Positions 1-64,000 of a DNA stretch of 64,000 nucleotides are shown here, piece after piece. This stretch comes from Micractinium sp. NFX-FRZ (taxonomy: Eukaryota; Chlorophyta; Trebouxiophyceae; Chlorellales; Chlorellaceae). The position numbers were made by a program, and so were the translations under genes. How positions within the stretch are numbered: position 1 is the stretch's first letter; the number at the start of each line of letters is the position of its first letter. The notes below the pieces were generated by a model. The model was not told the DNA's origin and ran no database searches. It was given only the letters and a program-made list of their open reading frames with translations. The DNA lies in assembly GCA_029339195.1 (NCBI GenBank), contig JAPTJF010000077.1:109198-173197 (forward strand), in the 5' to 3' direction.

Positions 1-79
1 GACCTGATGAATGTGGGAGGTGGGATTGGAGGGTTACTGTAGAGCAGGCGGCTGTCATGGGCGGGAGCGGTTTGCAGAG

Positions 80-364
80 TCGAGTACGCAAGGGGCACAT
101 GGCGGCTCACCAGCACACCCGACGGTCCGGGCCTCCCACTTGTGCCGCTCCACCGTCGACCGCCTGCCCGCGCGCTACAGTGAGCTTCTGAAGCAGCCCG
201 TGGGTCGCCGCGCCATCTGCGTGCACCAGGCTTTCAAAGACCACAGGCAAGGAGCGGGAGACTTGTGCCGCCGCCAGCAGTGGCAGAGGCGGCAGCACAA
301 CTGGCGGCACCTGTCGGTTGGCGCCGCTCATCGCCAGCTTCTATTTGAGTCTGGCACCAATTGA
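80..364 (+). CDS. possible 3'-terminal exon of a gene that begins left of the window
   Basis: An open frame ends with TGA at 362-364. Its second half reads like protein (for example LPARYSELLKQPVGRRA) and not like intron. A candidate acceptor (gtttgcag) ends at about 79. A TGTAA signal at 588-592 lies about 225 bases after the stop, a normal distance for an algal 3' end. I recognise no family. The left border is a guess, and the stretch could also be non-coding. Confidence 0.3.
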   Translation, partial: SSTQGAHGGSPAHPTVRASHLCRSTVDRLPARYSELLKQPVGRRAICVHQAFKDHRQGAGDLCRRQQWQRRQHNWRHLSVGAAHRQLLFESGTN

Positions 365-587
365 TTGGAAGGCTGAGGCTGGCCCGCTTCAGACAGCGCT
401 CTCGGCCCGTGTCAACTGTTTCGCGCCGGCGCCAGCTGTTCGTGGTGCGCAGCCCGAACCTGCTGAATGTCTTGAATTGATGGCAAATGATGGGCAGTGC
501 AGGCCCTTTGCCTTGTTATTTTTTCCAGATGCCAGCTGGTGCCAGCATGCCACTCCCCGTCCTCTCTCTGCACGCCCACCTCGTTGC

Positions 588-592
588 TGTAA
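588..592 (+). terminator. TGTAA polyadenylation signal
   Basis: TGTAA pentamer on the plus strand, about 225 bases after the stop at 364. It is the typical green-algal nuclear poly(A) signal and supports a plus-strand transcript ending here. Between here and 1180 I see no further gene; that stretch should hold the promoter and 5' UTR of the next gene. Confidence 0.4.
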
Positions 593-1179
593 AGCACGCC
601 TCCAAACGTATGAACGCCATCCCAGGCGCGAGCCGCCTGTTTTGAGGAGGGACGCTTGCAGCAGGCAGAAATGGAGCCTGCGAGCGAGCCTCTGCCCATT
701 TTGGCCATCAAACTTGCTGGTTGGAGCCAGGCGTTGGCTTTCATCGCCTTGCGGTGCGTGCCTCACTGCGTCCCGAGTGTTGGCTGACCCTCTTGTCGGC
801 CGCCTTGGGTGGCGGCAGGACCCGCCAGGCCTCGTGCGTCTTTTGGGCATAGCTTGCCTGAAGCAGCGGACGGCCGGCGAGAGCAGGCCGAAAGGGCGTG
901 GGCCTAGGTCTGAGCGGTCTCGAGCGCCGTACCTAGCACCGCCGCCTGTTGTCTGGTACAACTTGGCACATTCTCTCCATTGCCCCTAATGCTGCAGCAA
1001 TCGGCATGCCAGTAGGCTACGCTCAAACCATGCCACGGGGAGCCGCACAGGTGCGGGGCAGCGTGCCGCAACTTGCAGGTATCTGGCAGAGGCAGCTTTC
1101 TGTAGCGCCTTATTACCTGTTCAAACAATGCCTGCCTGCTTGTTTAAAACAATGCGCCCCCTTTTGCCCCGCCGTAGGC

Positions 1180-4100
1180 ATGCCTGGGGCCCTGCTCGTG
1201 TACCGCCTGCTCATGATGGGCTGGGGCGTGTTCATCGGGCTGCGCCAGCTGAGGGACAAGGGGCCCTACGTCTTTGTCTTCTTCACCGGTGAGCCTCCGC
1301 TGAGGGCAACAAGATCGCCGCAACTTTGGGATGTCTGCGTGGGCCGCCGCTGCCTGGGTGGCAGCGCTGTGCTGCGCCGACATGTCATGAGCGAGCAAGT
1401 GCGGCGCGCCGGCCGTTGTGCCTCTCTGCCTGCTTGCCCACCCGCCCGCCTGTGTCACGTGCCCATGCAGTGTGGAACTGGTGGCTGCTCACGCTCTTCT
1501 TTGCTCTGGGCAGCGCTGCCAGCCTGCGCGCCTGGGCGCGCCGCCGTGGCAGGCAGCAGCGGGACGAGCAGCAGCAGCGGGACGAGCAGCAGCAGCAGCC
1601 GCCGCCGCAGGGCGAGGAGCAGCAGCGGGGGAGGGCCCAGCAGCGGCGGCAGCAGCGGCAGCAGGAGGGGGAGGACGTGCCTGCTGATTGGCTAGATCGC
1701 GCGGTGATGGCGGCGTTTGCAATCGAGATGCCCGTGAGTGGGGGAGGGTGCAGGGAGGTGGTGCTGGGGAGGCGCGCGTCTGCCATAGTAGGGCGGCCGC
1801 TGGCGTTGCGAGGTGCGGGGAGCGGGGCGGCTGGCTGGTGGTGTGAGCATGAGGAGAGGTCATGCGTGCAGCACAGGTGGGGAATGCCTTGGGTGGGATC
1901 CCGCTGGTACGTGGGGAATCCCGTCGGCAAGGGGCAGCAACATTTGGAGGGTGACAGGCGGCAGAGCTGCCACACAGGCCGCTGCGTGCCCACAGGCATC
2001 GGGCCCCAAAGGCTGCAGGGCATCACGCAGCAGGAGGGCACAACAATGTGTGTGTCCATGAGCCACCTTATCCGCGTGCAGATTCAGCAAGTCTGTATGG
2101 GGCCACGTAGCACCCAGCCCGCCCCATATGCCAACTGCATTGGGTGGTAGATGCACCCACCTGGCCGGCGCTGATGCTTGCCTGCGGGGCTGACGCGTGG
2201 TTGTGAGGTGCAGACCGCACTGGTTGTGGATGCGCTGACCTGGCTGGTGCTGGTTCCCATCTACGAGTCCGACCCCGACCCCGCCCAGAGCGCCTTCTGG
2301 CACGCGGCGCACCACAACTTTGAGAGCTACAACGTGGGCACGCACTCCTCCCTCCTCTCTGACGTACCACCCGCCCGCCCTCCTCCGCCTTTCTCCCTCT
2401 TCCCCTCCCCCTGCCCTCCCCTCCTCTTTCGCCCCCACACGGGCCGCCCACTCATGCACTGCACCAGGCCCTCACCGCTGCCCGCCCGCCTGCCCCGCCT
2501 GCCCGCCCCCGCCCGCCCACCTGGCCCGCAGATGACGCTAGCCATAGACTTCCTGACCTGGACTGTGCTGGTGCCCATGCTCATGTCCGACCCCCGGGCC
2601 CAGCACGTGGCCTTCTGGGAGTCGCGCCTGTACTGCTTTGAGAGCTACAACGTGAGGGCGGGCCCCTGGGGCTGCCGCGCACCCCGGCCCTGCCCGCCGG
2701 CTGGCCGCCCACCCAATAGATGCATGCATGCATCGTGCTGCTCCCGGTGCCACGATGCCTCCTGGCATGCTAGCGTCCCTGCCCCCCTGCATCTGCACCC
2801 CTTGCATCGGCTGCCCATGCCGCTCCTCTGGCTCACCGCTGCACCACGCCTGCTGCCTGCCTGGGCCCTCTGCTTGCCTGCCTGCAGCAACACGGCTTCA
2901 ATGCTGCCATGATGCTGGGCGACCTGCTGCTCAACAACATCCCAGGTGGGCGCACCTGCAGTACCATTGAGTGGGCGCACACGCAGTGCCATCGAGTGCA
3001 CGCACTTGCAGCACCAGCCCTGTGTGCCGGTGCTGCGCGGAGTGGGCGCATACGCAGCACCAGCCCTGTGCACCTGTCTGCAGGGAGTGGGTGCCCGCAC
3101 TGCCATTGAGTGCACGCACTTGCAGTTGCATCGCCGGCTGTCGGCAGCGCAGCGGTGACATGATGTGCCGCAGGCACGCCACAGCCCGGGCCGCCCTTCC
3201 AGCCTGCGGAGCAGCGTGTGTGATGTTCCCTCGGCACGCGCCAGCCCCAGCAACCATTCCTTATGTGCATCCCCTCCCATCCCATCCCATTCCCCCGGGT
3301 GCCGCTGTGCCTGCAGTGACAGTTTACGACTCTGGCTGGCTGGCCCTCTGGGGCAGCCTGTTTGGGGTGTGGTCGGGGTTCTACCACCGGCGCACGGGGC
3401 GCTTCATCTACCCCTTCCTGGGTGAGCACGCCAATTAAATATTGTTTACGTGATTATGTTCTGTCGTACAAATTCGCCGACTAAAAACCGCTGGGCAGCG
3501 TGCGGGGCCCTCACGCAAGCACTGTTGCGTGGGATGTGATGGGGGAGGATTGAAGCGGCAGGGATGGTGCTGTGGGTGTTGTGCATGTCTGTGCCGTGCC
3601 CTTGGCCGCCGTTGGCTGCCGTTGTGCAGCTGGCGCTGCTGCCCTGGCTGCCGCTGTGCTTGCTCCAAGCTGTGCCTGGTCCTGCCGCCCCTTTGCTGCG
3701 CCTCCGACGGCGGTTTGGGGGACGTGTGCGTGCGCTGCGGGGCCAGCTGCCCCACCCTGCCTCCCCACCACCCTTGCGCCCTGGCCCCCCCGTTTGGACG
3801 ATTTTGACTGAAACTGTCATACAATTGTCCGGTTTTGGTTGACCGCGCTGCGCCGCCTCCCTGTGCGCAGATGTGACCAAGCCGTACTCGTGGGCCGCCT
3901 ACCTGGGCATCTTTGGGGTGATGTGGGCTGCCTACCTGCTGGTCATGGGCCTCGTCAGGTGGGCGGGGTGCAGAGCAGAGGGGAGAGCGGAGGGGGTGGG
4001 CGGGGTGCAGGGCGAGGGGGTGGGCGGGGAGAGCGGAGGGTGTGGGTGGGGATGCAGGGCGGCGAGGGTGGGCGGGGTGCAGCGTGGAGGGGGTGGGCGG

Positions 4101-5291: not shown

Positions 5292-5296
5292 TGTAA
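5292..5296 (+). terminator. TGTAA polyadenylation signal, membrane protein gene
   Basis: TGTAA on the plus strand, 819 bases after the stop at 4473. It implies a long 3' UTR. Confidence 0.55.
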
Positions 5297-5327
5297 ATTT
5301 TCACAGGGCTGCTGACTCCGGCCGGCA

Positions 5328-5332
5328 TTACA
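5328..5332 (-). terminator. TGTAA polyadenylation signal, HLB1-like gene
   Basis: TTACA on the plus strand reads TGTAA on the minus strand, 96 bases after the stop at 5428. It is the nearest such signal for the minus gene. Confidence 0.5.
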
Positions 5333-8606: not shown

Positions 8607-8637
<31 letters not shown>

Positions 8638-9203: not shown

Positions 9204-12200
9204 ATGGCCGCCGCCGCGCCTGCGGCTGCCAACAGCAGCGCGCCCAAGCCCCGGGAGGAGCCCCCTGGCATGGAGGAGGAGGCACGCCTGCTGGAGGCGT
9301 TTTCGCAGCTGCCATCGGTGGGCCGCGGCTGGGCGGCGCCTGCCGCCGGCGGGCATGGCGTGAAGCTCACGCTTCAGCTGTCGCAGCGCAACCTGCCAGC
9401 CAACTCGCAGCGCAAATTCCTCTCCACACTGCTGCTCAACGAGGCTGTGCTGGAGGCGGGGGAGGTGGATGCAAGCCCCCCGCTGGAGCAGACGGGGGTG
9501 CTGCTCTATGCGCCCTCCCCCTCCGGCCGCCGTGCCCTCGTTGTGCGCGCAGGCAGCGGCGAGTCGAGTGCAGGTAGGGGAAGGGGAGGCGGACCCTGGG
9601 GCAGGGGTATCAGAGTGCATGGCAGCGCTGGTGCCATGTGGAAAGGGTGGGGTGCAGCCACAGCACAGGAGCTGCGGGGCAAGGGACACCGCCAAGTGAT
9701 CCACTCTTTAAGAGATGCACTCGTCACCCAGAAGGCTGCACCCCTGCCCGCGCCCTGCCCGCGCGTGTGACTGTTCGCCGCGCTACACACCCTGCCCCTG
9801 TCCAGTGGTGGAGGTCTGGGACCGCAGCCGGCTGTGCTGCACATGCCTTGGCAGTACCAAGACGTCCTGCCATGCTTCTTGCCTTTACCATCTGTTGCAG
9901 TGTCGGAGATTTCTGACCGCAGCCGTGTGCTGCATATGCCCTTGACAGTACAATACGTCGTGTGATGCTTCTTTCCTTACTTGCCATCTTGAAACATGCC
10001 ATTTGTATGCTATTTGGCTTACAATTGGTTGCAGTGCTGGAGATCTGGGACCGCAGCCGGGTGCTGCGGGAGCTGGCGGTGCCCAAGGCGCTGCATGGGG
10101 CCATCTACAACGACGGCTGGTTTGGCACCGGTGCGCACGGGTGGGGCGAGCATCTGGATATGGGTCCACAGAGTCCGGGATTTGTACTGTTACTTACCGA
10201 AAGCTGCTGTCCACCACTGCACGTGTTGAATGCGCAGGCGCCGCCTGGTCGCCAGATGAGACCCGTGTTGCCTACGTGGCCGAGGCCCCGCCCCCTAGCA
10301 AGACCCCCGAGTGGGGCGCCCTGCCCCCCGGGCCCGACGGCAAGAAGGCGGAGGGAGCGGCGCCCAAGGGGTGGAGGGGCCAGGGGGAGTGGAGCGAGGA
10401 CTGGGGAGAGCTCAACACGGGTGCGTGGCTGGGGGCGGGTGAGAGTGAGGCAGGGTGCTTGCTTACGGTACCGCAGTGTACACTTGGAAGAGCGGCACAG
10501 GTTTGAGAAGGAGCGGGGTCTGGCGACCGATCAACACAGGTGCAAGGCGGTGGAGAGGAGTGAAGGATGGTGGGGCAGGGCGCCCCGCCCGGTGCACAGG
10601 GCAGGGCAGGCGGGGCGCTGAGAGGGGGGTCTCATGCGCGGCTGTATCTGGGCATCTGGAGTGAGGGAGGAGGAAGGACTTCATAATAATGCACAGGGGC
10701 TTCTGGGTACAGCCTGCTGGCAGTTCTTCCGTTGTGCCACTGCCATCCGTACCTGATGCATCACTAGTCGCAAGTATTTGTTGCTGCAGGCAAGAAGCCG
10801 CCCACCCTGTTTGTTCTGAGCACCCCATCCAAGGCTACTCTCGTGCTCTTTCGCAACACGTTCCCTGCCTTCCTGTGACAATGCAGGCAAGAAGCCGCCC
10901 ACCCTGTTTGTTCTGGACACCGAGGCGTGGGCTGTGCAGCGCGTGGCGGGACTGCCAGAGGACTCCAGCTGCGGCCAGCCGGTGTGGGCACCACAAGGTG
11001 TGGAAGGGGCGGGGGGCAGGGAAAGGGGTGGCAATGCTGGCAGAGGCGAACAACAGGGGTAGAGGAGGCAGCAGACAGGGGGCTATTGGGCAGAGCAGGG
11101 TAGGGCAGGGCATGCATACCTTGCAACACCTACCAACGCGACTCACTCGTGCATCCCGCTCTCACGCGATGCGCGGCTGTTTGCGTGCCGTTGCACCTTC
11201 GCCCTACCGCCGCCTGCGCCTGCGTTTCTGCAATGCACAGGTTGGTTGGTTCCTCACTCACCTCTGTGGCCTCTCCCCTGCCCCGCAGGCGACGCGCTGC
11301 TGTTTGTGTGCTGGGAGCACCAGAGCGAGCTGGCCAGCGCGCACTTCCCCCAGCGCCTGGGCGTCGTCTTCTGCTTCAACCGGCCCTGCAGCCTGCAGGC
11401 CGTGGCCTGGCCGCAGCCGCCAGGTGGCGAGGGAGACGGGCAGGCACCCCAGGCGGTGTGCCTCACCCGCTCCCTGGGCAGCGCTTTCTCCCCCCGCTTC
11501 TCCCCAGATGGTAGCACCCTGGTTTTCCTCAGCCAGCAGAATGCGATCACCAGCGGTGTGCACAACGCCACTGCCACGCTGCACAGTCTGAGCTGGCGGG
11601 ACGCAGCGGCAGCGCTCAGCGGCGGCATGGCGCCGCCGCCGCGCACAGGTGTGCCCGCTGCCCTCGTGGGCAGTGTGTTCTGCTTTGCTGTTCTCATTTG
11701 AAGGCTCTTTTCAAGGCCTTACTAGCGGCACGGTGGCCGTGTCCACTCCTATGCTTGTTGGGTGCAGTACACCCCGTGGCAAGCCTGGTGCTCCCCTGCC
11801 CACAGGTTTGGTATGCTTCCTCATCATCCCCCCCTGTGATTGGCTGCAGTGGTGGACACCGTGTGGAACCCGGCCAGCCCCGAGGACTTCCTAGGCCTCT
11901 ACTGCGCCTCCCTGCCAGAGCAGCCCTTCCTGCCCGGCAGCAGCACCCTGCTGCTCACCACGCAGTGGCGCAGGTGCGCGGGGCCGGGAGCGATGGGGGG
12001 CGTTGGAGCGCTGGTGGGTGCGGGGGCGGGATGCAGGGAGCACGCCCTGCTGTGGATTACGCAGTGGCGAAGTTCATGGCCTGGACCCACTGCCCAGCTG
12101 CACTTACGTGATGCATGGGCGGGACATATGGTGGGGTCATATGCCCGGCCCACCTGCCCAGTCATATGCCCGGCCCACCTGCCCAGCTGTCCTTGCTGCT

Positions 12201-15200
12201 GGCAGTCCTTGCTGCTCATCCCATGCCATGTGGTCTCACCTGTTTCACCCCTCTCACCCAACTCGCCATGCCATGTGGTCTCACCTGTTTCACCCCTCTC
12301 ACCCAACTCACCCTCTGTGCCCTGCAGCTTGGCGGCTGTGGTGGCTGTAGATCTCGGAAGCGGACAGGTGACCCGCGTGACCCCAGCCAACGGCGCCAGC
12401 TGGTCCCTGGTGGCCATGAGCAGCGGTGAGCGGGAGGGCAGGGAGGATGGGCAGGCGGGCAGGGCAGGCGGGCAGGAGTTGAGCAGGCACACTCACCACA
12501 TGCGCTGCTGGGAGTAGCGGTCACCCTGCTGCTCCGGCTGAAAGGGTCCCTCCCACCCCACCTGTGTGCCTGAGGCCGGCACGCTGGTGGTGGAGAGTAA
12601 GGTTCATCTGCATAGCAACTTCTCGCTCACCTGCTCGCCCACCCACCTACCAGCCTGCCCGCCTGCCCGCCGCTCCCTGCAGGCTGGGTGATAGCATCCG
12701 AGAGCCGCCCCAGCCAGCCCTTTGCGCTGTTCGCCTCCCACATCCCCGAGTCTGAGCGGTCAGCCCCCACCGCCGCTGCATGGGGCTGGTCCGCTCTGCC
12801 GCTTCCCGACACAGAGCCTGCCAGCTGGCCAGCAGCGGTGCGGGAAGCACTGCAAGATGTGGCGGCGACGACGCTGCAGGTGCAGCCGACGACGGCGCCC
12901 ACCAACGTCGCCTGCGAGGCAGTTGTGCTGCACAGGTGGCGGGGGATGGAGGGAGGGATGGCAGGGGTGAAGGGGGGTGAAGGGGCTGACAGGGGGCAGG
13001 CAAGAAGGGGATGCGCAGCAGCGGGCTGGCAAGCTGGCGGGCCGGAAGGTCTCAAGAGTCACATTGCTGCCCTGATCCCGACTCTACCCCTGGCTGCGCT
13101 GAGCGTGCCCCGCTTCCCCCTCCCCAGCATCTCACGCATGTCTGCACCCGACTGCCCACTGCCAACTGCCAACTGCAGCCGCTCAGCCACCGGCCCCCGC
13201 CCCACCATCATCACCCCCCACGGAGGCCCCCACAGCGCCTACCTGGCGCAGTACTTCATGCCACTGTCCTACCTGGTCTCCATAGGTGTGTGCTGGTGCC
13301 AGGGTTGCCGGGTATGATCTGACTCTGATTTGTGTGCTGCCCCACTGCTACTCCCCTCCCCGTTTTGCTTGCCACATGTTCGGCTAGAACATGGTGCTGC
13401 TCAGCTAACCCACCCCCCACCCTGCCCCACCCTGCACCCTTGTGCTCCCCCTCATCAGCCTACAATGCTGTGCTGCTCAACTACCCCCTGCAACCCCGTC
13501 TCCCTATGCACATTACACTTCAGGCTACAATGTGGTGCTGCTCAACTACCGCGGCTCCTGGGGCTTTGGCGAAGCCTCCATCCAGTCGCTGCCCGGCAAC
13601 ATTGGGGTGAACGACGTGGCAGACTGCCTGGACTCCCTGCAGGCAGCCGTGGATGCAGGTGGGAAGGGGCAGGGTGGGGCCAGCTCGGGGCCAGTGTGGG
13701 GCGGGCAGCCTGGCTTCGCTGCAGGCTGCTCGTAGAATCAGCAATTGATGGCGTGAGGAACAGTTGGGGAATGGGAGGGCTCACAACGCCGGTGGGGTAA
13801 ACAGCAGGCCGGTGCCCATATGCTTACCTGCCCACCTGTCCCGTTCTGCCAGCCTGCCTGTCCCCTTATGTAACGACTCTGCCCCTCCTGCTGCCCCTCC
13901 CCATCCCATCGGCAGGCCTGGCGGATCCCGAGCGTGTGGCCGTCATCGGCGGGTCGCACGGCGGCTTCCTCACAGGTGCCGCTGGCTGCTTGCTGGTTGA
14001 TGCATGCATGCATGCTGGCAGCTGCCGCTGGCTGCCTGCTGCATGCATGTGTGCTTACAGGTGCTGTTGGATGCTTGCCACGCACGCATGCATGCTTGAT
14101 TGCCAGGGTGGCATGAGGTCACAGGCCTGGATACATGGCACCCCTTGTGAGGCCACACTGCCGTCTAGCGTGCCTGGCCACCTCCCTCCTGCGGATCGCC
14201 GTATCCAGCGTCTCAGATTGCCCTGCCGAGTGGCTGTATAGGCCACGGCCAGATGAAGCCACTTGCATGCCACAACCCTCCCTCCCTCCCTCCCCACCCT
14301 CGGCAGGCCACCTGCTGGGGCCACAGAATGGTCAAAACAGCCCTCGCTCCCCATTTTGGCTAAATTTATGCTCCTCCCTCATAACTCACTGTGCCCTCCC
14401 CCCGCCTCCCCCCGCAGGCCACCTGGTGGGCCAGCACCCCGACCGCTTCAAGTGCGCGGTGCTGCGCAACCCAGTCTGCGACATCTCCCTCATGATCCAC
14501 GGTGAGCCCCCCAGCCTTGCCAGCCCAGCCTTGCCACCTGGCATGGGGCCTGTTGCAGCCAGGTTGCTTAAACGAGCAGCAAGCACCACCTGTCTGCGAC
14601 ATGCCCCTTATGTTACACGGTGACCACCTGCTTGCCAGCGCGTAGCTTTGGGGTGCACTCCTTGCATTGCCCACTCATGAGGCGCTTCAGAAAGTGAGCG
14701 GCATCCTGGGCTGGTGCCACTGTGAAGCCACGCCCCCTTGTTGTCGACTGAAGTCTCGTGGTCACTCACATCTCGCCTGCAGTGAGTGACATCCCGGACT
14801 GGTGCTACTGCGAGGCGTGGGGCACTGAGGAGGCGCGGCGCCGCATGGGGGCGCGGCCCACCGCGGAGGACATCCAACGCTTCTGGTCGGTGTCGCCCAT
14901 TGCACACGTGGACAAGGTGAGTGGGTGGTGTGGTTTGGGGAGCAAAAGAAGAAGATCACAGCCCGAATACTTGGGGTTGGGGAGCAGCCAACAGGAAATC
15001 AAGGCACTAGCCAGCTACCCGGTGTGGCGGGGCGCTGGTGCGCCTCCACATGTTGTGGGACACAGCATGTGCCGGCACTTCAAGGCTTTACCCTTGTACT
15101 TGACACCCGCCCCACCCCCCGCATGTCCAGCTGTCATGTTCGTTGAGCACCCTGCCAATCATGCCTCTCCACGCCTACCTCTCTTCCCTGCTGCCTCCGG

Positions 15201-15871
15201 TGGTTTGCCTTGCGGCAAGTTCCCCCTCCCTCCCCTGTTCGTGCTGCTGGGCGCCAAGGGCCGGCAGGTGCTGCGTATCCCTGGCTCCACTGTTCCTCAT
15301 GCCTGCCCGCCTTCCCCTTTCTGCCTTGCTGCAGGTGAAGGCCCCCCTGTTCTTCATGCTGGGCGCCAAGGACCGGCGGGTGCCCATGGAAGATGCCAAG
15401 CAGTACATCAACGCCGTCAGGTGCGGGGACTGGCACATGTCTGCTACTGTGCAGCTCCCGATGATCGACCCACCTTGGCCGATCTTTTGCTCCATCGGAC
15501 ATACACAGGCGGCGGCGCGACCCCGTCGGTGCCTTTCCCCAAAAAAAACCTACGCCCTCAACCGCCTGCTGCTACTGTCGTATCAATTGTTTGATCGATC
15601 CATCCCCTCTGCATAGGCGGCGGCGCTACCCCCCGAAGCGCCCGTCGTTATGTTCCCCAAGAACCCCCATGCCCTGCCCTTGGCCCCTTGCTGCTGGCAC
15701 CACTGTTGTATCAATCGGTTTTTCGACCCGACCCCTCTGCACAGGCGGCGGCGCGACGCCCCCGAGACGCGCGTCATCGTCTTCCCAGAAGACTCCCACG
15801 CCCTGGACAAGCCTCAGACCGAGTTTGAGCAGTGGATCAACGCGGCCTGGTGGCTCAAGCGCTTTATGTGA
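9204..15871 (+). CDS. AARE: acylaminoacyl-peptidase (acylamino-acid-releasing enzyme), prolyl oligopeptidase family S9C
   Basis: Fifteen exons: 9204-9573, 10035-10130, 10238-10420, 10887-10997, 11289-11648, 11850-11973, 12328-12425, 12683-12935, 13178-13285, 13524-13658, 13916-13975, 14418-14501, 14783-14915, 15335-15420, 15745-15871. They give 775 residues; plant AARE is about 764. The enzyme removes N-acylated residues from peptides and degrades oxidised protein in cytosol or plastid. The N-terminal beta-propeller includes [11 protein letters not shown] and [16 protein letters not shown]. The C-terminal alpha/beta hydrolase has [17 protein letters not shown], the nucleophile motif GGSHGG (exon 11), the acid in LGAKDRRVP (exon 14) and the histidine in [10 protein letters not shown] (exon 15). 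All catalytic residues are present. No transit peptide is obvious. The introns are full of decayed copies of exon edges, listed separately. Confidence 0.93.
9806..9945 (+). repeat. two decayed copies of the AARE exon 2 acceptor and 5' edge
   Basis: Copies start at 9806 and 9901, each right after a ...cag acceptor, and match the exon 2 start at 10035 (core ctgggaccgcagccgg). Neither has a usable donor in frame. The 95-base unit includes intron sequence. Confidence 0.85.
10797..10834 (+). repeat. copy of the AARE exon 4 acceptor and 5' edge
   Basis: The acceptor cag plus the next 29 bases are identical to the start of exon 4 at 10887, then the copy diverges. Its frame ends in a stop, so it looks non-functional. 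Confidence 0.88.
12136..12310 (+). repeat. two perfect tandem repeats in an AARE intron
   Basis: A 25-base unit (gtcatatgcccggcccacct...) occurs at 12136 and 12161. A 45-base unit (starting ccatgccatgtggtctcacc) occurs at 12221 and 12266, nearly perfect. Both lie in the intron before exon 7. The stretch 12046-12075 further resembles the exon 6 donor edge (acgcagtggcg). Confidence 0.85.
13381..13490 (+). repeat. two decayed copies of the AARE exon 10 5' edge
   Basis: Copies at 13381-13410 and 13456-13484 resemble the start of exon 10 (cag-GCTACAATGTGGTGCTGC at 13521). The second still has an acceptor-like cag. Confidence 0.85.
14586..14735 (+). repeat. copy of the AARE exon 12 3' edge with donor, then copy of the exon 13 5' edge
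   Basis: 14589-14622 resembles the end of exon 12 including its ggtga donor (real site 14501/14502). 14694-14732 resembles the start of exon 13 (real start 14783). Both sit in the intron between these two exons, in the same order as the real edges. Confidence 0.8.
15225..15280 (+). repeat. decayed copy of the AARE exon 14 5' part
   Basis: The core ctgctgggcgccaagggccgg resembles exon 14 (LGAKDRR region at about 15358). It lies about 115 bases upstream, inside the intron. Confidence 0.75.
15506..15680 (+). repeat. two decayed copies of the AARE exon 15 acceptor and 5' edge
   Basis: Copies at about 15508 and 15615, both opening with an ag-gcggcggcgc edge like the real exon start at 15745. Each continues with degenerate TTCCCC-type codons and a GCCCT end matching FPEDSHAL. 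Confidence 0.85.
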
Positions 15872-48663: not shown

Positions 48664-48705
<42 letters not shown>

Positions 48706-52316: not shown

Positions 52317-55103
52317 ATGGGTGCTGGGCAATTCATCAGGTCAGATCACGCATGGATCGATGATTCATCGCCTGCAAGGCGCCTGCGACAGGCACGGGTC
52401 CTCAACCCTGCTCCTGCCCTTCGGTTGTCCCTGCAGGCACCTCGCCCTGGCGTCTGGGGCGTCGTCTCAGCGATCAAGGCTGCCAGGTATTGCGCCGATG
52501 CTTGTTGGCAGCCTCTGAAGTTGGGCTGCCGTCACCTGCCGCTGCCCGCCCGCCTGCCGCGCTCGGTGTGTGCAACAGCAGCCCCACCCTCTGTGTGCTC
52601 ATCTGCAGGCGCCTGTGCCCAGCCTTGCGGCACACAGACGCAGCGGCGCCCGCAGCAGCATCACCTGCAGCATCACTGGCAGCAGCAGCAGCTACAACAG
52701 CAGCAGCAGCCACGGCCGCGGCGGCGCACGGCACCGTCCCCGCTGCGCGCCGCTGCTGACAATGCTGCTGCGGGGAGCACCAGCGGCGGCGGCGGCAGCG
52801 CGGGGCTGCCCATAGAGCACGCGGCTGGAGGTCTGGCAGCAGCAGCGGCCTGGTGGGATGCCCTGTTCCGCTTCAGCAGGCCTCACACCATGGTGGGCAC
52901 AGCAGTGAGCGTGTGCAGCGTCTCAGCGCTAGCGCTGGGTCCGGGGCAGCTGGGCGCGCAGGCGGCAGTGGCGCTCTTGCAGGCCCTCTCCTCAGCGCTG
53001 CTCATGAACATTTGCATTGTGGGGATCAACCAGGTGTGCGGGTGGGCTGACGTTCAGGGTGGTCAGCGCGTGGGTGGGCCAGCGCTTGTGTTGCTGGCAG
53101 TGTGTGCTGCTACCTCGGGTGTGGGCGGGCCGCACCCCTTGCTGCTGCTGTTGTTATGTGTGGCTGCCTCACTGCTGCCGTCCCATGCGCTCCTGCAGTC
53201 CCCTTTGCTGCCCCCACCTGCACTCCTTGCTGCTGCTGCACTTGCCTTCATCTATCGCGCGCTGCAGCTGTGCCGTTGAGACCGGCTGCACAAGCCTGAT
53301 CACCACCTTGCCTGCGCGCCTCTTGCCTGCGCCGCTCTTTTACCTTCGCCTTCCCACTGCCACCCACACACCCTGTTGTGTTGCAGCTGTACGACATTGA
53401 GATAGATCAAGTGAACAAGCCCTACCTCCCCCTTGCCTGCGGCGACTTTTCGGTGGGGCAAGGGCGCGCCATTGTGGCCGCCACAGGCGCCGCCTCGCTG
53501 GCCATCGGCGCCGCCAGCGCCTCGCAGCCCCTGCTGGCCACGCTGGGCGGCAGCCTGGCGCTGGGCATAGCTTACTCCACAGACCTGCCCTTCCTGCGCT
53601 GGAAGCGGAGCCCCATGCTGGCGGCGGCATGCATCTTGGCTGTCAGGTGGGCGGGGGGGCGGGGGGGCTGGCTGGGGAGGGAGGCAGGGAGGCAGGCTGG
53701 CTGGGCCGTGAGGTCGGGAGGCAGGCGGGCATGGGAGGGAAGCGGGGCCCGGGCAGGCCGAGGAGGAAGGTGGGGGAGGCAGGGGGCTGGCTAACTGAGG
53801 CCTGGAGGCAGGCAGACTGGCAGGGAGTTGAGGAGGCAGGCAAGCAGGCTGGGCAAACTGCTGAGGGTCTCCTCCTCACCCCGGACTGCTCAGCTGGCCC
53901 ACTTTGGCACTCCTGGATCCTTGCCCCTCCCACATGAATAAACCCATGCCTGCCTGTGCAGGGCAGGGCTGCTGTTGTGGCGGTGCAGCTGGGCATCTCC
54001 CTTTCCCCACTTTGAACTGCCAGCAAAACACCCTGTTCTGCCTTCTTCTCCTGTCCTGTCTGCAGGGCCATCCTGGTGCAGCTGGGCTTCTCCCCTGTCC
54101 CACACACAACCCTATAAACACACCCTGTTCTTTCCTCTCTCCTGTCCTGTCTGCAGGGCCATCCTGGTGCAGCTGGGCTTCTTCTTCCACATGCAGCTAG
54201 CCATGGGGTCGGCGGCCCCCGCCGTCACCCGCCCCATCGCCTTTGCCACCGCCTTCATGCTGCTCTTCTCAGTCGTCATTGCTCTGTTCAAAGACGTGCC
54301 TGACGTGGCGGGAGACAGCAAGGTGGGTGGGGCAGGAAGGCTGGGAGGGTGGGGCTGGGAGGGTGAGGCCTGGAGGGCTGGGGTGTTGGAGACGTGCCAA
54401 AGGCGCGTGTGGAAGCCGCGACATGGGCGGCGGCATGCCAGAATGATGGTCAGCAAACTGGCGCTCGCGCCCCAGCTGGCGTAGCTCCTCTCACCTGGCC
54501 GCCTCCCCCCGCTGCCTGCCCTGCAGGCGGGTGTGCGCACGCTGAGCGTCCGGCTGGGCCCCAAGCGCGTGTTCTGGGCGTGCATAGCCATACTAGAGGC
54601 AGCGTATGCAGGTGGGCGGGGGGCGGGGCGGGTGGGGCGGGGCGGTCGGCAGGCAGGCAGGCGCTGCCCAAATGCAACAGCAGAGAGCGAGTGAATGCGT
54701 TGCATCCCGTGATGTACCACAGCTGCACACTGAACGGGACGGATGGGTGCTGTTGGGCGGGGCGGGTGCCTGGCCGCCTTCCCCGTACTACAAGGGCGCC
54801 CCGGCCGTCCGTTGCAGCAGCGGCGGTACGTACATGCTCCCTCCCTCCCACCCAGCCTTGCCCCGCCTCTCTCCGGCTGCCCCACTCCCTGCCTATCTTG
54901 CAGGAGCCATTTTGGTGGGCCTGCAATCGGAGCTGGTGTGGAGCCGGGTGGCCACCACCGCTGCGCACGCTGCGCTGGGCGCGCTGCTGATGTGGCGCGC
55001 GCGCCGCACCGACCTCTCCAGCCCCAAGTCCCTCGCCAGCTGCTACATGTTCACCTGGGGCCTCTTCTATGCCGAATACCTGCTGCTGCCCCTCTTCCGC
55101 TGA
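52317..55103 (+). CDS. VTE2: homogentisate phytyltransferase (tocopherol biosynthesis), plastid UbiA family
   Basis: Seven exons (52317-52339, 52437-52486, 52609-53033, 53387-53646, 54157-54322, 54527-54611, 54904-55103) give 402 residues. It joins homogentisate and phytyl diphosphate in the plastid envelope, the first committed step to vitamin E. The first 110 residues are Gln/Arg/Ala-rich and serve as transit peptide. Then come FSRPHTMVGTAVS, the prenyl-diphosphate motif NQLYDIEIDQVNKPYLPLA, LPFLRWKRSPML, VIALFKDVPDVAGD (second Asp motif), VRTLSVRLGPKRVFW and SCYMFTWGLFYAEYLLLPLF. The match to plant VTE2 is close along the whole length. An in-frame ATG at 52212 would add 35 residues, but it overlaps the start of the divergent minus gene, so 52317 is preferred. 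Confidence 0.9.
53961..54096 (+). repeat. two copies of the VTE2 exon 5 acceptor and 5' edge
   Basis: The copy at 54050-54096 is almost identical to the real site over about 45 bases (upstream pyrimidine tract, cag, then GGCCATCCTGGTGCAGCTGG; real start 54157). The copy at 53961-54002 is more decayed. Confidence 0.9.
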
Positions 55104-56208: not shown

Positions 56209-59200
56209 TCAGTGCGCCCCGACAGCAAGGTCGTACACCGAGGCGGCGGCAAACACCTGGAGGCACGGGGAGGAACAAGCGGACAGGGTCAGTCTCAGGA
56301 CAGGCCTTCCGAACGCTTGCAAACCAATACATTCGCCTCGTACATACTCACCGTGGAAGAGGGAGCATCCCCCTGTGCTGCCCCACCCTCTCATCCCTCC
56401 GCTACCCTCCCCCCAGCCACCATCCCCATGCTCCACGCCAACCCACCGACTCACCAAAGAACAGAATGCCTCCCACGTGCCGCCCCACCTTCTCATCTCA
56501 ACCCCGCCCTCCCCTCCAGGCCTCAGCCCCACACCCCACGTCTCTCCACCGACCGGCTCACCAGGAACAGGGAGCCTCCCACGTACTGCACCACCTTCTC
56601 GTCGAGATACTTGCCCAGGAAGGAGCCCCCCAGCACAGCGATGACGGTGGCTACGGCGTGACCCACAACCGCGCCCGCCACCACGCCTGCAGAGGTGGGG
56701 AGGGGGGAGGCGCGATGGTGTGAAGGGCAGAGGGGAGGAGGCAGTCGCGGCGTCATGCAGCGCTGACCTGGCGGCATGCTGCGCACACATCTATGCAGCA
56801 AGGCCCCCAGGCACATTCAGCCAAGCCTTTAAAGAAATCGATGGTCAAGGCATATTTGCACCACAGTCCCCATTTGGCAGCGGTGCACTCACCGACGGGG
56901 GAGGAGGCTGCTGCCAGCGCGATGGTGGCCAGGAAGGACTTGTCCCCCCACTCGGCAGCGAACACGAGGGTGAAGGTGGAGGCAACCATGGAGAGGGCGG
57001 CAGCGCCTGTAGGCATAGGGGGGGGGGTGGGGCAGACGGCAGGTGTGGGGTGTGGAGTGCGAAAAATTGAGCTCGCGAAGAAGAGGGGGAGAGGTGTGCG
57101 TGAGGTGGAGGCGAGTATGGAGGTGGCGGCGGCGCCTGCATGCATTGGGGTGTGTGTGGGGCGGCAGACAGGCGTGGGGATATGAAGTAGCCAGGTTTGG
57201 AGTGAGGAGTACAAAGCGTCAAGCTTGCAAAGGGGAGGGGCAAGGTGGTGTGCAAAATGTGCTCACACCACTCAGGAGTGCAGCATGCCGCTCACCGCTC
57301 CCAAAGCTGCCCACCGCCTGCAGCGCCTCCTCCTCTGCCTGTCTGTTGCCCAGCACTCCCCAACGCCCTTTCCCCTTCCTCCCACAACGCCAGGACTTCC
57401 GCCCGCCCATTCCTCACCGCTCCCAAAGCTGTCCACCACTTCCTGCGCCTCCTCCTTCTCCTCTGCCGCTTTGTCGTCGGCGGTGCTGGCGTTGCGCAGG
57501 GTCTGCACGCCAAACCACACCAGCAGCACCACCGCCAGAATGTCGTCCAGCGGCAGGCCTGCGGTGGGCACCACCTGCGGCGGGGAAGGGGAGGGGAGGG
57601 GAGGGAGGGACAGTGAGGAGAGGGGATTGAGCGGGGGAGGGGGAAATCAGCATCAACAACGCCTTGCGAAAGGCAGGCATCTGGCTTCTGTTGGGCACCA
57701 CTTGCAGCTGCAGCAGCGTGGGGTGGAGAGTGGGGGTAGGATGGGGCAGCGAGGGGAGGAGAGTGAGCGAGCGAGGCTCCACCTGGTCCTGCCCTGGCCA
57801 GCCCTGTCCTGCCCTCCCCAGCACACGGGCCAGACCCAATGAGACATCTGGGCACCTCCTGCCCTATCATTCTCTGCTTCTCCCATAGGCCTCGTCCGGC
57901 GGGGGCAGGGCAGCAGGCAAGGTGCTCCCACCTCTTGGCTCCCCCGGTCCATCGCCGGCCCACCCTCGCCACACACACACACACACACCTCGCCCAGTAG
58001 GGTGCAAGCGGCGGCTAGGAGCCCACCGAGAGATGGTCATGATGCCCAGCCACCCGGCCCCCTTCTGCGCTGCCTGTACTACCTCTCCTATTCTCAAAAC
58101 CAGCGCCACCCATCTCGCCCAGGATGTGGGGGAAGCAGCTCACTGGGGTGTTGCTTCCCCTGTGGACACTGCCCTGTTTCCCTTGGCAAAGCTGCTTTGC
58201 CTGCTCATTGCGCTGCACCCACCTCGTCCAGGATGTGCAGGAAGCGGCCCAGCCCGACGGAGATGACGGTCATGATGCCCAGCGCGCCAAAGGTGCCCGC
58301 AAACACCAGCCCCTTGGGCTGCTGCAGGGCCAGCAGCAGCGCGATGAAGAATGTCTTGTCGCCGATTTCGGAGAAGAAGATGAGGAGGAGGGCCTGGATG
58401 AAGCCCTCCCTGCAGCGGGATGGCCAGTAGGGGGGGCAGGGAGGGGGGCAGGGGGGAGGTGCAGAGAGAAGTAAACAGAACAGCCAATCAGGGGGCAGGG
58501 GGGAGGGAAGGAGGGGGTGCAAACGGGCGTCAACAAACTGGACAGGAGGAGGTGTTTTGATGGGGGGGCAAATGGGAAGCAATAACCTCGACAGGTGGGA
58601 TGTCCTTCGCACGAGCCGCCCTTGGGCAGCCTGCCCTTGAATGCCCAATGAAAGCCTGGCTTACCCAACACAGCACAGCAGGGGAATGCAAAGGAAGGGC
58701 GCGGCCCCCATCACACACTGACCTGACGGGGTCGTCTCCCACGATGCCGGGGATGAAGGCGCCCGCCTGCACCGCCGCGCCGCTCAGCAGCTCTCCCGCC
58801 GCCGCCGGCCCCGCCGCTGCCAGCAGGCCGCCGAGGGCCACAGCTGCTGCTGCCGCTGCAGCTGCGTAGCCCGGAGAGGAGGCGGCAGGCAGGGAGGCCT
58901 GCGGTGTGGGGCCAGAAGAGGGCTATGAGATTGCACGCTAAGCTGCAATTGCACAAGGCAAGCCAAGAAGGACAGCGCTGTGAGGGTGGGCAGCCCCACG
59001 GAGGCCCGACGAGAAAGCAACAGCCTGCATGGCACGGGCTCTGCTCCCAGGCCCGCCCCGCCGCCGCGACGCACCTGCAGTTGCTGCCAAACGCTGCCAA
59101 GCTGATGCTGCTGCTGCACGTTGAGCTGCTGTTGCTGCTGCCCGACGCTGCTGAGGCTGGTGCGCTCCAAGGTGGCGGGCGCGAGCGCTGCGCCTCGCCG

Positions 59201-59597: not shown

Positions 59598-61934
59598 ATG
59601 TCGACCATGCTGGTTATGGCTCGCGCGGCCGCCCGGCCGGTGCAGGTGCGCAACGCTCCGCAAGCGGCTGGTGTAGTTGCAAACGACAGCACAATGACGC
59701 CCCAGAACCCTCTGCACTACCCCACCCATGCAGGCATCACGCTGCAGCAGCAGGCCTCAGGCCCGGCAAGCCTTCCGGGCGCCCGCGCGGTCCATGTACT
59801 TCCACACCCGGCAGTCCATCATCGCAGCGGCCGCCGAGGTGCGGGACTGACGGCGCACATACATGCGGCGCCGCTGCCGCCGCTGCCACCGCCCACCTCG
59901 CGCTTGCCCGCCCACCCACGGCGCTCCCCTTGTGGTTACAATGCAGGCTGAGGAGGCTGTGGAGGAGGTGGTTGAGGAGGAGTTTGAGGACGAGGTGGAG
60001 ATGGCGCCCGCCTCGGTAAGGGTGACGGCTTGCTCGAGTCGGTTAGCCAGGGGGCTGCAAACGTATGCGGCGGCATGTTGTTGAGAGAGGGCAAGCAGCG
60101 GGGGTGCGCTGCGCGGCCAGCATGACCGAACCTGCAAGCAGCACCGAGCAGCTGATCGTTTCGCGCTGCCACCGGCGCGCCACACCACGTGCGATGCGCA
60201 CCTAGCGAGCGGGCCAGCATGCTTGCACGCACATCCCCTCCCTCACCCTCTTTTGTCCACCCCGCCGTCTCCCCGCCCCGCCGTTCGTGCCCGCAGACCT
60301 TTGCCGAGAAGCTGGCCAAGCTGCAGGCTGCCGAGGGCGTCCCCGCCGCCCCCGCCGAGTTCTCCCTCAACTTCCTTTGGCTGGACAAGAACATTGCCGT
60401 GGCGGTGGACCAGGTGTTCAACCAGGTGCGCCCATGCACATGAATCCAGTACATAAGCATGGGGATGACATGTGCTGCGTACACGGTGCACTACATGACA
60501 TGAGGGTGACGGTGGACCACGTGTGCCTCCTGCGCTGGAGGTGCACAAGAAAAGGGGAAGAGGAACAGGCGTCTGGAAGCGGTCTCCACTTGTTCCATGC
60601 TGCAGCTGAGTGCACCTCTCACTCTGCTGTGGCCTACGAATGCACTGCTCCTGACCCCTCCGTTTCATTGTGCTTTGTTTTGTCGACCTGTGCAGGGCCA
60701 GCGCAGCCCCGTGACCGAGTACTTCTTCTGGCCGCGCAAGGATGCCTGGGAGGAGCTCAAGGCGGCGCTGGACGCGATGAGCTGGATTGGGGAGCGCGAG
60801 AAGGTGCTGCTGCTGAACCAGTGCACAGAGGTGAGTCGAGGCGGGCACATCTGGGGCTGGGGGGCGTGACAGGGTGTGCTGCTGCTGAAGCAGTGCACAG
60901 TGGTGAGGGGGGGGGGGCACATCTGGGGCTGGGGAGCGTGACAGGGTGTGCTGCTGCTGAAGCAGTGCACAGTGGTGAGGGGAGGGTCGAGCGCAGCAGT
61001 CAAGAGGGCAAAGGGAGGCAGCAGGGGAGGCGGGGCAGGCGGGGGCGGTTGCGAGGCAGCGCGCAGAGGTGGCAAGCGATAGGTCGGTGCCGGGGCGGAA
61101 GCTTGCGGCGGTGGCAGGCACGCGTGGCTGTGAGGCGGTGCTGCTGCTGCTGCTCTGGTGGCATGAGCTGAGCAAGGAGGGGGTGAGATGTAATTGCCGG
61201 CGGGCAGTGGGTGTTCTGGGCGTCCCCTCGGCTTGCTGCCCGCCGGCGTGTATGCATGGTGCTCTCCGGGGCGCGTGCCGTCGCGAGGGGCTGTGTACTC
61301 GGCACCTGCCCTCAGGCGCTGGCGCTGGCACGACCTGCTAGTTAAAATTATACTTTGTTTCCGGCTGTTGTCAACTGGCAGGACGCGGGCAAGCACTGCC
61401 TGGTCATCTCCTTTCCTTGTGTAACGCCGACTGATTTCGATTGTTGATTGTCCCACGCGCCCCGTGTTCCGCCGCCGCAGGTCATCAACTACTGGCAGGA
61501 CGAGAACAAGCACTCCCTGGATGAGGCGCGCACCAAGTTCACCAACGCCAAGTTCCAGGTGAGTGAGCACGAATGAATGAGCGGTAACCAACTGCCGTTA
61601 GCTGCAGCTCTCACAGCTTGCTACCGGGGGGTTGATCCCGGCTGCAATCGCACGACCTGCAACCCCCAGAGTGGAGGAAGCAGGAGGGCAGAGAGTGAAC
61701 AGCCTGTGGGCGTCGCCAGCGGAACAGAGCCTTTGTGTGCCAGGCCTCTCATGCTCGTCCCTCCCTCACAGCAAGGCCGCAACCCCGACTTGGGGAGGGC
61801 TTATCCGCCTGCCGCCTGCCGCACGGATTGCCACGGGAAGGGGGGGGTTTAGGCAGTACTCTCTCCCTGTGGCCCAGCACTGCCATGACTGCCCACTCCT
61901 GCCAATCGTTCCCGTGCCAATGCAGGGGTCCTAA
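59598..61934 (+). CDS. PSRP3: plastid-specific ribosomal protein 3 (Ycf65-like), small subunit
   Basis: Exons 59598-59645, 59734-59838, 59947-60015, 60297-60425, 60696-60830, 61481-61558 and 61926-61934 give 190 residues. A basic, Ser/Arg-rich N-terminus (PQARQAFRAPARSMYFHTRQ) is the transit peptide and an acidic stretch follows (EEAVEEVVEEEFEDE). The conserved Ycf65 core reads FLWLDKNIAVAVDQV, GQRSPVTEYFFWPRKDAWEE, WIGEREKVLLLNQCTEVINY. It belongs to the 30S subunit of plastid ribosomes and is plastid-coded in some algae. The last exon codes only G-S-stop; if the intron were kept, translation would end at VSEHE (stop at 61575-61577). The TGTAA at 62107-62111 favours the spliced end. Confidence 0.85.
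60804..61019 (+). repeat. 72-bp tandem repeat spanning the PSRP3 exon 5 donor (3 units)
   Basis: gtgctgctgctgaa starts at 60804 (real exon), 60876 and 60948, exactly 72 bases apart. Each unit contains the exon end, a GT donor and the start of the intron (cacatctggggctgggg); the third unit fades after its donor. Confidence 0.92.
61367..61407 (+). repeat. decayed copy of the PSRP3 exon 6 5' edge
   Basis: Resembles the exon start at 61481 (tcaac, tggcaggacg, aagcact-cctgg) over about 40 bases. Its acceptor is lost. Confidence 0.8.
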
Positions 61935-63139
61935 TTTTCCGCCAAGGCTGAAGCGTGTCCAGCTTTTTTCCTTCCAGCCAGCCTCCAGCCCAGCCCACGC
62001 AGCCCTGCTCTGTCACCCCCGCGGCTGCGCCGAGAGCTTGCCGGGCCCCACATCTGAGGCTGCTTTCCCGCTCTTCCTCCTCTCTGCTCCCCTCTCCCTG
62101 TCAGCTTGTAACGCCCACATTGCTTGCAACGCAAGTGCCGTGAGTGTGAAGGCAAGGTGTGCAGTGGGGCATGTGAGCTGGATACGCACGGGTGGCTCCC
62201 AGGTGGCCCGGGCTGGGGCAGCAGCGGCTTGTCGATTGCTGGTAGGCCTGCTCGGCTGGGACACCTAGTGGCGAAGTACTGGTAGGAGGGGTGCTCGGAG
62301 CCTGCTTTTGATAGTGGATTCACTAGATGCGCAGTGCTTGGGCGGGCCCTGCTGAGCACGGCCTTCAAGGGAGGCTTCACACCTCCATGGATATACCCTG
62401 CCCTCTCTTGCTGTACCACCGCCACAGCCCTGCGCTTCCCGCTGGCAGGCAGGGTGGGAGCTGTGCCAGCGATCAGGGATGGTGCCAGCATCTTTTGATG
62501 CCATTCCCGATTCCCCTTTTTCTCATGAAGATGTCAGGCATGCTTGGCAATGGACGCGGGCCCAGCTGCTGCGGGAGGCATGCCAGCCGCCCTGGCGGCA
62601 GCCACCTTGACGCCAGCAGCAGCACGTGGGTGGCACCCGCCACTGTTGCATGCAGTCGGATAGAGACGAGTGCTACTTCACCAACAAGCATTACGAGGCC
62701 CCACATGCAGTTCGTCTGGCGTTGCAAGCCAATGCTTGGTAGCCAGCAACACAGCTGAGATCCCCTCAGTCACCACCAGATCACCACCGAGGCGGAGGGA
62801 GGTGGGAGGGCTCTTAATGGCGGGCGGCGCTGACGGCCCGTCGGCTGCATTGCGCAATCTGCGACGTTGTTTTCAATTTGCGCGTTGGCGATAGAGGGAC
62901 GCAAGGAGAGGGCAACGCGTGGAAGCGGGCGGTTAAAACGTACCCTCACTTTCCAGCCGCCCGCCCGCCTTGGACAGCGGACCGGAGCTCGCCCTCCCTG
63001 CCAATCCAATCGAGGGTTCCCAGTTCCAGTTGGTTTCTATCATGCGCGTACCCCCCAACGAGCCGCAAAAAGGGGTGCCGAGGCCGGCCGCTGACGCGCC
63101 ACCGCAGCGTGCCTGATCGCTTTTGGCAAGCTAAAACGA
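61935..63139. other. intergenic: PSRP3 3' UTR and promoter of the proline-rich protein gene
   Basis: No convincing gene. Short minus frames at 62265-62727 lack splice partners and family signals. Plus TGTAA at 62107-62111. Confidence 0.4.
62107..62111 (+). terminator. TGTAA polyadenylation signal, PSRP3
   Basis: TGTAA 173 bases after the stop at 61934. It is a normal distance and supports the spliced terminal exon. Confidence 0.55.
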
Positions 63140-64000
63140 ATGTTTAGAGTATGTCCTAGGCGACAGCTGCGGCGGGCGGCGCTCCTGCTCCTGCTGGCAG
63201 CGGCCCACCTTGTCGCGGCGCACGAGCCGCCCACGGGCGGCGCGGGCCGCCGGCGCAGGAAGCTGCGAAGCACCCTGCGGGTGAGGCCCTTAAACAAACA
63301 CGAGTTCCAAGTCTTCGTTTGTTGGTGCTTGCGCTGGATATATAACAGTTGAAGCGCTGATCCCTACATGGGTGCAGGCCCAGGAGGGCGATGACGAGTT
63401 AAACGTGGGTGCGGATGTGGGTGCTGACACCCTGCACGGCAGCGAGCGGGAGCTGCAGCAGTACGGGTATTACAAGCCACCGCCCATGCCGCCACGTCCA
63501 CCGTTTCCGCCCCCATCGCCGCCGTCGCCGCCGTTTTGGGACCGCCCGCCGCCATCCCCTAGCCCGCCGCCATCCCCCAACCCGCCCCCGCTGCCACCCA
63601 GGCCGCCCCCGCGGCCATCCCCACCGCCGTCTCCACCCAGCCCACCGCCGCAACCACCCAGCCCGCCACCCCCACCCAGCCCGCCCCCACTTCCACCCTC
63701 ACCCTCTCCTAAGCCTCCACGGCCCCCACCCCCACCGAGGCCACAACCTCCCCCCAGCCCTCCGCCCCTGCCCCCATCACCGCCACCCCCTCCACCCAAG
63801 CCTTCGCCACCCCCGCCGCCTCCCAGCCCCGCACCTCCCCCGCCGCCACCGAAGCCTTCACCACCGCCGCCCCCGCCCAGCCCATCACCACCCCCGCCGC
63901 CTCCCAGCCCCGCACCTCCCCCGCCGCCACCGAAGCCTTCACCGCCCCCGCCCCCGCCCAGCCCATCACCACCCCCGCCGCCACCCAGCCCACCCCCGCC
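63140..64000 (+). CDS. proline-rich extracellular glycoprotein (pherophorin/extensin-like), cut by the window edge
   Basis: Two exons (63140-63280 and 63378 to beyond 64000) give at least 254 residues. A signal peptide is clear: MFRVCPRRQLRRA, then LLLLLAAAHLVAAH. A short acidic part (EGDDELNV) precedes a long run of SPPPPP-type units, the hydroxyproline-rich rod of algal cell-wall glycoproteins such as pherophorins. The region is secreted and should be O-glycosylated on hydroxyproline. A globular domain may follow past the window, as in pherophorins; I cannot see it. The complementary strand is open as a Gly-rich frame, a shadow of the repeat. Confidence 0.8.
63804..64000 (+). repeat. 81-bp tandem repeat in the proline-rich rod
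   Basis: Units start at 63804, 63885 and 63966, 81 bases (27 residues) apart and nearly identical. It continues past the window. Confidence 0.9.

Follow-up and report, generated by a model that had tools for sequence, protein, structure and literature searches.

In the sections consulted of a report on the potato RdRp gene (Ma, Lan and Niu 2016, PMC4974935), a tandem duplication is described that copied an intron-exon boundary together with its branch site, pyrimidine tract and 3' splice site, and an 83-bp duplication within an intron is described as well. The tandem genomic duplication model of intron gain is attributed to Rogers 1989, Gao and Lynch 2009 and Hellsten 2011 (as cited in PMC3443670 and PMC4974935), and the passages of a review that treat it (PMC3443670) call it the sole proposed intron-gain mechanism shown in vivo, and a prevalent one. 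The same passages report Daphnia introns arising from staggered double-strand-break repair, with direct repeats and a spacer of unknown origin. Here we analyse copies of exon edges, splice sites included, that lie inside the adjacent introns of the green alga Micractinium sp. NFX-FRZ. The stretch under study, called the window, comprises 64,000 nucleotides (109198-173197 of contig C77, JAPTJF010000077.1, in a 66.07-Mb assembly of 838 contigs). For wider tests, the sample was extended by 188 kb, taken from nine further contigs and directly upstream of the window, to 252 kb or 0.4% of the genome, and the results below refer to this sample unless the window is named. Because the history of intron DNA is soon erased, both the growth of introns and the source of new intron sequence are poorly understood.

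Exon-edge copies in the introns

By aligning the 40-base edges of exons to their own introns and to 50 dinucleotide shuffles of each intron, the echo of exon edges in introns is confirmed as real. While 2% of edges are expected to beat all shuffles, 59 of 387 donor-side edges (15.2%) and 49 of 385 acceptor-side edges (12.7%) did so, a clear excess in the comparison that a preliminary description of the window had proposed with 60-base edges. A readable trace is thus kept by the conserved exon edge at about one edge in seven (108/772 vs 2% by chance), which would allow intron growth to be counted, dated and related to splicing constraint within one genome. Within the window alone, 13/87 donor-side and 14/87 acceptor-side edges beat every shuffle, and 25 edge/copy pairs involving 20 edges lie in 16 of its 88 predicted introns. 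With the exon edges of other genes as the null, 53/391 donor edges (13.6%) and 41/389 acceptor edges (10.5%) exceeded the 99% point, against about 1% expected. The excess at junctions over exon interiors and intergenic DNA, which had also been proposed, is borne out: all shuffles were beaten by exon-interior probes in 2/96 and 6/110 cases, and by intergenic probes, a class that includes untranslated regions and perhaps missed introns, in 7/216. Reverse-complement probes did so in 9/387 (donor) and 13/385 (acceptor) cases, and donor edges set against the next intron in the list in 20/335, a somewhat raised share. The 5' edges of introns, the one intron edge tested, matched the rest of their own intron in 36 of 281 cases.

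Ungapped repeat pairs at a threshold of 18 numbered 317 at offsets of 30-400 and 21 at offsets of 2030-2400. After de-duplication, 263 pairs remained, of which 78 join a junction-spanning copy to an intronic copy, 79 are intron-intron, 64 exon-exon and 4 intergenic; four far-offset control sets combined hold 50 pairs, 2 of them touching a junction. With ungapped 30-nt probes and a direct match of at least 24/30 at a distance of 80-140 nt, 2.22% of donor and 1.62% of acceptor exon edges matched, compared with 0.16% in intergenic DNA and, for the respective probes just within the intron, 0.27% and 0.26%. Mid-intron probes reached 0.98%, a value inflated by the copies themselves, and mid-exon probes 0.79%, owing to coding repeats; at far offsets or in inverted orientation the values fall to 0.00-0.01%, and inverted copies at exon edges amount to 0.00% in both edge classes. 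Exon edges therefore exceed the adjacent intron edges 6-8x with ungapped probes, whereas the two are about equal with gapped probes.

These counts are based on predicted gene models from a splice-aware hidden Markov model, which was seeded with 13 hand-picked exons, retrained on the 252 kb, and gave 398 introns (median 265 nt) in 68 genes, with exons of 181 nt on average. Most tests use the 391 introns with sufficient flank, and the thresholds are our own choice. The predicted splice consensus is strong, with CAG/GTGAG at the donor and TGCAG/ at the acceptor. About 6% of predicted donors have GC instead of GT, for example that of the intron starting at 28849.

In total, 93 edge/copy pairs were collected, 43 at donors and 50 at acceptors. 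The spacing of 70-130 bases given in the preliminary description holds roughly, the observed range being slightly wider (80-145 nt from the matched junction in 67 of the 93 pairs), and a copy usually lies about 110 bases from the real edge. The peak is set by the matched junction and not by the opposite intron end, strong matches falling at 80-140 nt in 36/53 and 32/41 cases. Below 80 nt and at 80-140 nt, exon-edge matches number 8 vs 68 and intron-edge matches 19 vs 22 (p 2e-5). That copies are scarce below about 80 nt suggests that two competing splice sites can stand only so near to each other, and selection may act against closer copies. Intron-intron repeat pairs spread from 20 to about 140 nt in offset and then drop sharply.

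The well-matched core mostly takes in 20-45 nt of the exon and usually reaches no further than about 15 nt into the intron. Several introns hold 3-5 edges at roughly even spacing; at one donor of the sampled locus L019, copies stand at +97, about +182, +272 and +372. Altogether 58 of 391 introns carry a copy at 80-145 nt, and the copies are clustered by gene (permutation P 0.0005), with 8 of 14 introns in AARE and 8 of 13 in a gene of locus L006 that was labelled CTNNBL1-like by eye. Among genes with at least 5 introns, 16 of 37 have no edge copy at all.

Within the copied exon part, mismatches are spread evenly over the codon positions (120/735, 145/733 and 132/734), and the copied GT or AG is intact in 37 of 67 pairs, about what mean identity predicts. 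From these two results, there is no sign that the copies code or are retained as splice sites, and they look neutral. Some copies keep near-perfect edges and an intact GTGAG or TGCAG after their flanks have been lost, as functional decoys or regulated alternative splice sites under selection might. However, the splice motif is not conserved beyond its surroundings, and such a role is very unlikely. For the seeding of alternative exons, which had been suggested earlier, there is no evidence beyond a separate pair of coding exons described below.

Origin of the copies

We think it rather probable that the copies come from recurrent short local duplication, in units of mostly 70-140 bp that straddle junctions and lengthen introns. 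A contiguous direct repeat over both sides of the junction is seen in two young cases in the window, with units of 91 bp in the UbiA/VTE2-like gene (about 65 intron and 26 exon bases; Tandem Repeats Finder (TRF) period 91, 2.2 copies, 83%) and of 72 bp in the PSRP-3 gene. In the 80-145 nt set, 21 of 67 pairs have homologous spacers beside the copy and the real edge (p<=0.02), where about 1.3 are expected. For 23 of 64 introns, vs 7.2 expected, the adjacent intron flank is also best matched at the offset of the edge, which leaves 41 where this is not shown. Contiguous duplication, thus demonstrated in a minority of cases, offers the simplest origin.

Under this explanation, short local duplications, by slippage or unequal exchange, would keep arising in the introns of the alga, many of the units straddling a splice junction and taking a few tens of bases from the exon and the remainder from the intron. 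The outer splice site would stay in use and the inner one be stranded in the intron, so that the protein is unchanged and the intron gains one unit. The stranded copy would then decay neutrally while selection holds the real edge, and the exon part would be the last to fade. With at least two edge repeats in place, these could duplicate again, be deleted or convert one another, which could produce arrays of 3-5 units and uncouple the similarity of edges from that of spacers.

Several results weigh against recurrent junction-straddling duplication in this plain form. Apart from exon constraint, edge and spacer should be equally similar, and they are not: in 7 real pairs with core identity >=0.9 over >=25 nt, spacer scores run from 5.5 to 29.5 vs a simulated median of 42-46, and 3 of the 7 lack spacer homology. 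In the high-identity class (>=0.88) the flank matches at the same offset in only 5/15, and the exon part has a median of 50-60 nt (gapped alignment, 52 pairs), less than the 80-90 expected under uniform unit placement. The low intergenic rate is not explained by a genome-wide duplication bias, the 6-8x ungapped ratio of exon to intron edges stands against 1.6-1.8x in simulated decay, and acceptor reverse complements, the second exon-interior class and next-intron comparisons all lie somewhat above 2%. Finally, pairs with core identity >=0.9 make up 10/67, compared with 37-60% in simulation; with so few young pairs, plain duplication at a constant rate does not fit. The same shortage measured by 30-nt edge identity (7/67 at >=0.85 vs 55% simulated) was set aside, this measure being capped where less than 30 nt was copied.

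The shortage of young pairs slightly favours a different process, in which the duplicated piece is limited to the exon edge and splice motif (about 25-45 nt) and is placed about 110 nt away with unrelated filler, by a route like staggered-break repair or templated insertion, full-unit duplication being the minority. The spacers that are far too diverged point the same way, as do the 34/34 match at 10785/10882 in AARE without clear flank similarity and the 29 identical bases at a donor edge in L019; the spacers 10819-10881 and L019:1560-1640 are each single in the genome. Direct repeats with unrelated filler fit the 10785/10882 pair but not the pairs with homologous spacers, to which the L019 case itself belongs once gaps are allowed (p 0.008). 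Moreover, both young complete cases are plain tandem units, and templated insertion should also yield inverted copies, of which none were found. As the general origin, such edge-limited copying is a tentative possibility. Neutral duplication alone would leave the spacers more alike than they are, so that a further process, either exchange between repeats or copying limited to the edge, probably contributes.

Exchange or deletion between the edge repeats of an array would uncouple the ages of edges and spacers. In one array of L006, with pairs at 110 and 220, the real edge and its spacer are closer to the copy two units off than to the nearer copy, a pattern compatible with exchange between edge repeats.

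Because intron 5' edges match as often as exon edges, the duplication process covers introns and junctions are not privileged. It could even be that duplication is uniform and neutral and that exon edges are conspicuous only since coding constraint freezes one of the two copies. The 5' edge matches would agree with this, and so would the excess of weak intron-intron pairs up to about 140 nt, the slight weak-pair excess at 100-160 nt in intergenic DNA and, partly through the copies they contain, the mid-intron probes. On the other hand, the simulated detection ratio falls well short of the observed one, intergenic DNA is low, exon-edge and intron-edge matches differ in offset, and copies cluster by gene, which makes a pure detection effect quite unlikely. 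At the other extreme, junctions may be hot spots of a duplication process with a ruler of about 110 nt, tied to splicing, transcription or chromatin, with the edge under selection repeatedly seeding arrays and refreshing nearby copies and with introns growing by a ratchet from their edges; we regard this as rather doubtful. The central claim of the preliminary description, recurrent local duplication across exon-intron junctions with copies of many ages, is supported; its reading of the copies as junction duplication lacked the intron 5' edge matches and the spacers far more diverged than the edges.

The share of introns with a copy climbs with intron length from 1/59 to 21/57, and introns with a copy at 80-145 nt have a median length of 337.5 nt vs 251 nt without one, a comparison inflated by the greater room that long introns offer for finding a copy. 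Lengthening, also proposed earlier, is therefore probably supported, the direction of the change being the likely one rather than an observed one. Intron creation, its companion proposal, is not. If introns were born by tandem duplication of AGGT-containing exon sequence, as in the Rogers model, the end of exon 1 should recur where the intron ends, or the start of exon 2 where the intron begins; at >=14/20 the first signature occurs in 1/391 introns and the second in 0/391. Although tandem duplication is clearly active near splice sites, this makes intron birth an extremely unlikely source of the pattern, and the missing signature counts against births of a detectable age, though not against very old ones.

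Copied edges in the window genes

A Pfam scan of seven window proteins recognised OTU, GH99, prefoldin, UbiA, GDT1 and PSRP-3, with translations as expected, and gave no match for the membrane protein. Among the eight genes first listed as carrying copies, six do by our criterion (AARE, GH99, prefoldin, the VTE2-like UbiA gene, PAM71/GDT1 and PSRP-3). The OTU gene has no edge copy in its 8 introns and 16 edges (lowest p 0.017), and the membrane protein gene drops out because its pair at 2214/2532, listed as the intact stage of the series, consists of intact coding exons in tandem and is a phenomenon separate from the edge copies. The other stages were found as described: identical copies in AARE and the UbiA/VTE2-like gene, a periodic array in PSRP-3, and many decayed copies (Table 1).

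Table 1. Exon-edge copies and the tandem exon pair in the window (positions within the window)
Gene	Feature	Position	Strand	Remarks
Membrane protein	exon A, 120 nt	2214..2333	+	intact frame
Membrane protein	exon B, 120 nt	2532..2651	+	alone after upstream exon in several relatives' proteins
AARE	older acceptor-edge copy with CAG, exon 10035-10130	9803..9834	+	91% to 10032-10063, offset 229
AARE	second acceptor-edge copy, exon 10035-10130	9885..9933	+	82% to 10019-10067, offset 134
AARE	donor-edge copy, exon 10238-c.10421	10510..10553	+	75%, offset 119
AARE	near-identical TGCAG and first 29 bases of exon 10887-10997	10785..10824	+	34/34 in a row vs 10882-10921, offset 97
AARE	weak acceptor-edge copy	11163..11188	+	85% over 26 nt, offset 123
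AARE	acceptor-edge copy	13382..13407	+	85%, offset 141
AARE	acceptor-edge copy	13455..13485	+	90%, offset 65
AARE	acceptor-edge copy	14288..14319	+	81%, offset 111
AARE	donor-edge copy, exon 14418-14501	14589..14628	+	80%, offset 118
AARE	acceptor-edge copy, exon 14783-14916	14693..14728	+	81%, offset 88; shares intron with 14589 copy
AARE	copy of exon 15335-15420 (+9 to +49)	15232..15271	+	88%, offset 112
AARE	third unit of 3-unit acceptor array, exon 15745-15871	15504..15524	+	95% over 21 nt, offset 236
AARE	second unit of same array	15574..15676	+	82% and 72% stretches, offset 128-129; spacer p 0.005
GH99	donor-edge copies	28885..28974	+	81% and 74%, offset 118-120; predicted donor GC
Prefoldin	acceptor-edge copy	41439..41499	+	79% over 61 nt, offset 177
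UbiA/VTE2-like	copy of exon +25 to +55	53287..53316	+	80%, offset 125
UbiA/VTE2-like	identical acceptor-edge copy	54047..54091	+	45/45 vs 54138-54182
PAM71/GDT1	donor-edge copy	56459..56497	-	82%, offset 106; spacer p 0.004
PAM71/GDT1	acceptor-edge copy, 77 nt	57103..57179	-	78%, offset 129; spacer p 0.004
PAM71/GDT1	donor-edge copy, GTGAG intact	57291..57334	-	89%, offset 122
PAM71/GDT1	donor-edge copy, GT lost	58107..58142	-	83%, offset 109
PSRP-3	72-bp tandem array over donor of exon 60696-60830	60804..60985	+	TRF 72 bp, 2.5 copies, 92%
PSRP-3	acceptor-side exon copy (+10 to +40), AG not kept	61374..61403	+	87%, offset 117

The AARE translation aligns with the proteins of relatives; those closest among named species are in Micractinium tetrahymenae (82%) and Chlorella variabilis (74%), and one metagenome protein reaches 88%. 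At least one predicted donor, at 10438, is misplaced, since relatives' proteins (ELNTGKKPP) put the real one near 10421. The stretches that follow the copies at 9803 and 9885 are alike (9833-9885 vs 9926-9978, 74%), no clear similarity extends beyond the 34 identical bases of the 10785/10882 pair, and in the array before exon 15745-15871 the exon homology of the 15504 unit extends further with indels while the 15574 unit is homologous over most of its length. A search of the alga's own genome with the AARE protein gave 15 matches, all at the AARE locus, and a DNA search with window positions 1-20000 gave 51, mostly from a CAG-rich exon or from 14916-15019, an interspersed repeat within an AARE intron with eight further matches elsewhere in the genome (77-86%). 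At 11409-11501, 93 bp of an AARE exon match contig C433 at 84% on the DNA level, although the protein search found no AARE paralogue. Genomic DNA of relatives was not found in two scans: genome contigs scanned with AARE returned three bacterial relatives, and viral contigs scanned with a predicted protein of 411 aa, whose gene lies immediately before the window, returned no match.

In PAM71/GDT1, positions 56370-56412 resemble the copy at 56459 at 77%, and the PSRP-3 array holds two extra edge copies with intact GTGAG. A 48-bp tandem repeat of about four units at 55074-55266 runs over the predicted stop of the UbiA/VTE2-like gene. A long proline-type repeat array, with periods of 27 and 81 bp among others, occupies the window end (63476-64000).

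When the conserved membrane protein is aligned with its relatives, most of their proteins have B alone after the upstream exon, a C. vulgaris model has an A-type segment and the M. tetrahymenae model has three. From these alignments, 2214/2532 may be an old, mutually exclusive exon pair; to our knowledge, mutually exclusive exons have rarely been reported in algae.

Comparison with known systems

A literature search over titles and the openings of abstracts returned no description of exon-edge copies in algal introns and no such genome-wide pattern, which leaves their absence unproven. Tandem exon duplication with mutually exclusive exons fits the 2214/2532 pair but not the edge copies, which are partial and decaying. 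A dispersed element was also considered as the source and rejected, since each of the three stretches searched has a single occurrence in the genome (the search skips very common words). Introner elements resemble the pattern as a lineage-specific intron-modifying process but differ in the same respect, consisting of many near-identical dispersed copies.

The staggered-break introns of Daphnia, as far as the review passages describe them, share with the alga direct repeats with intervening sequence. The repeats of the alga, however, are longer (about 20-45 nt) and shifted to one side of the intron, and some of its spacers are homologous. The tandem genomic duplication model, in the form given in the same source, is alike in that local duplication of splice-site sequence alters intron structure and leaves the protein unchanged; it differs in placing a new intron, marked by a fixed signature, within an exon. 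This signature is not found in the alga, whose existing introns seem to grow. The closest single example is the potato RdRp gene, where, in the sections consulted, a duplication likewise spans an intron-exon border. There, a single event yielded a new spliced intron and inserted exon sequence, whereas the alga shows many events, with copies that sit within existing introns and are apparently unused.

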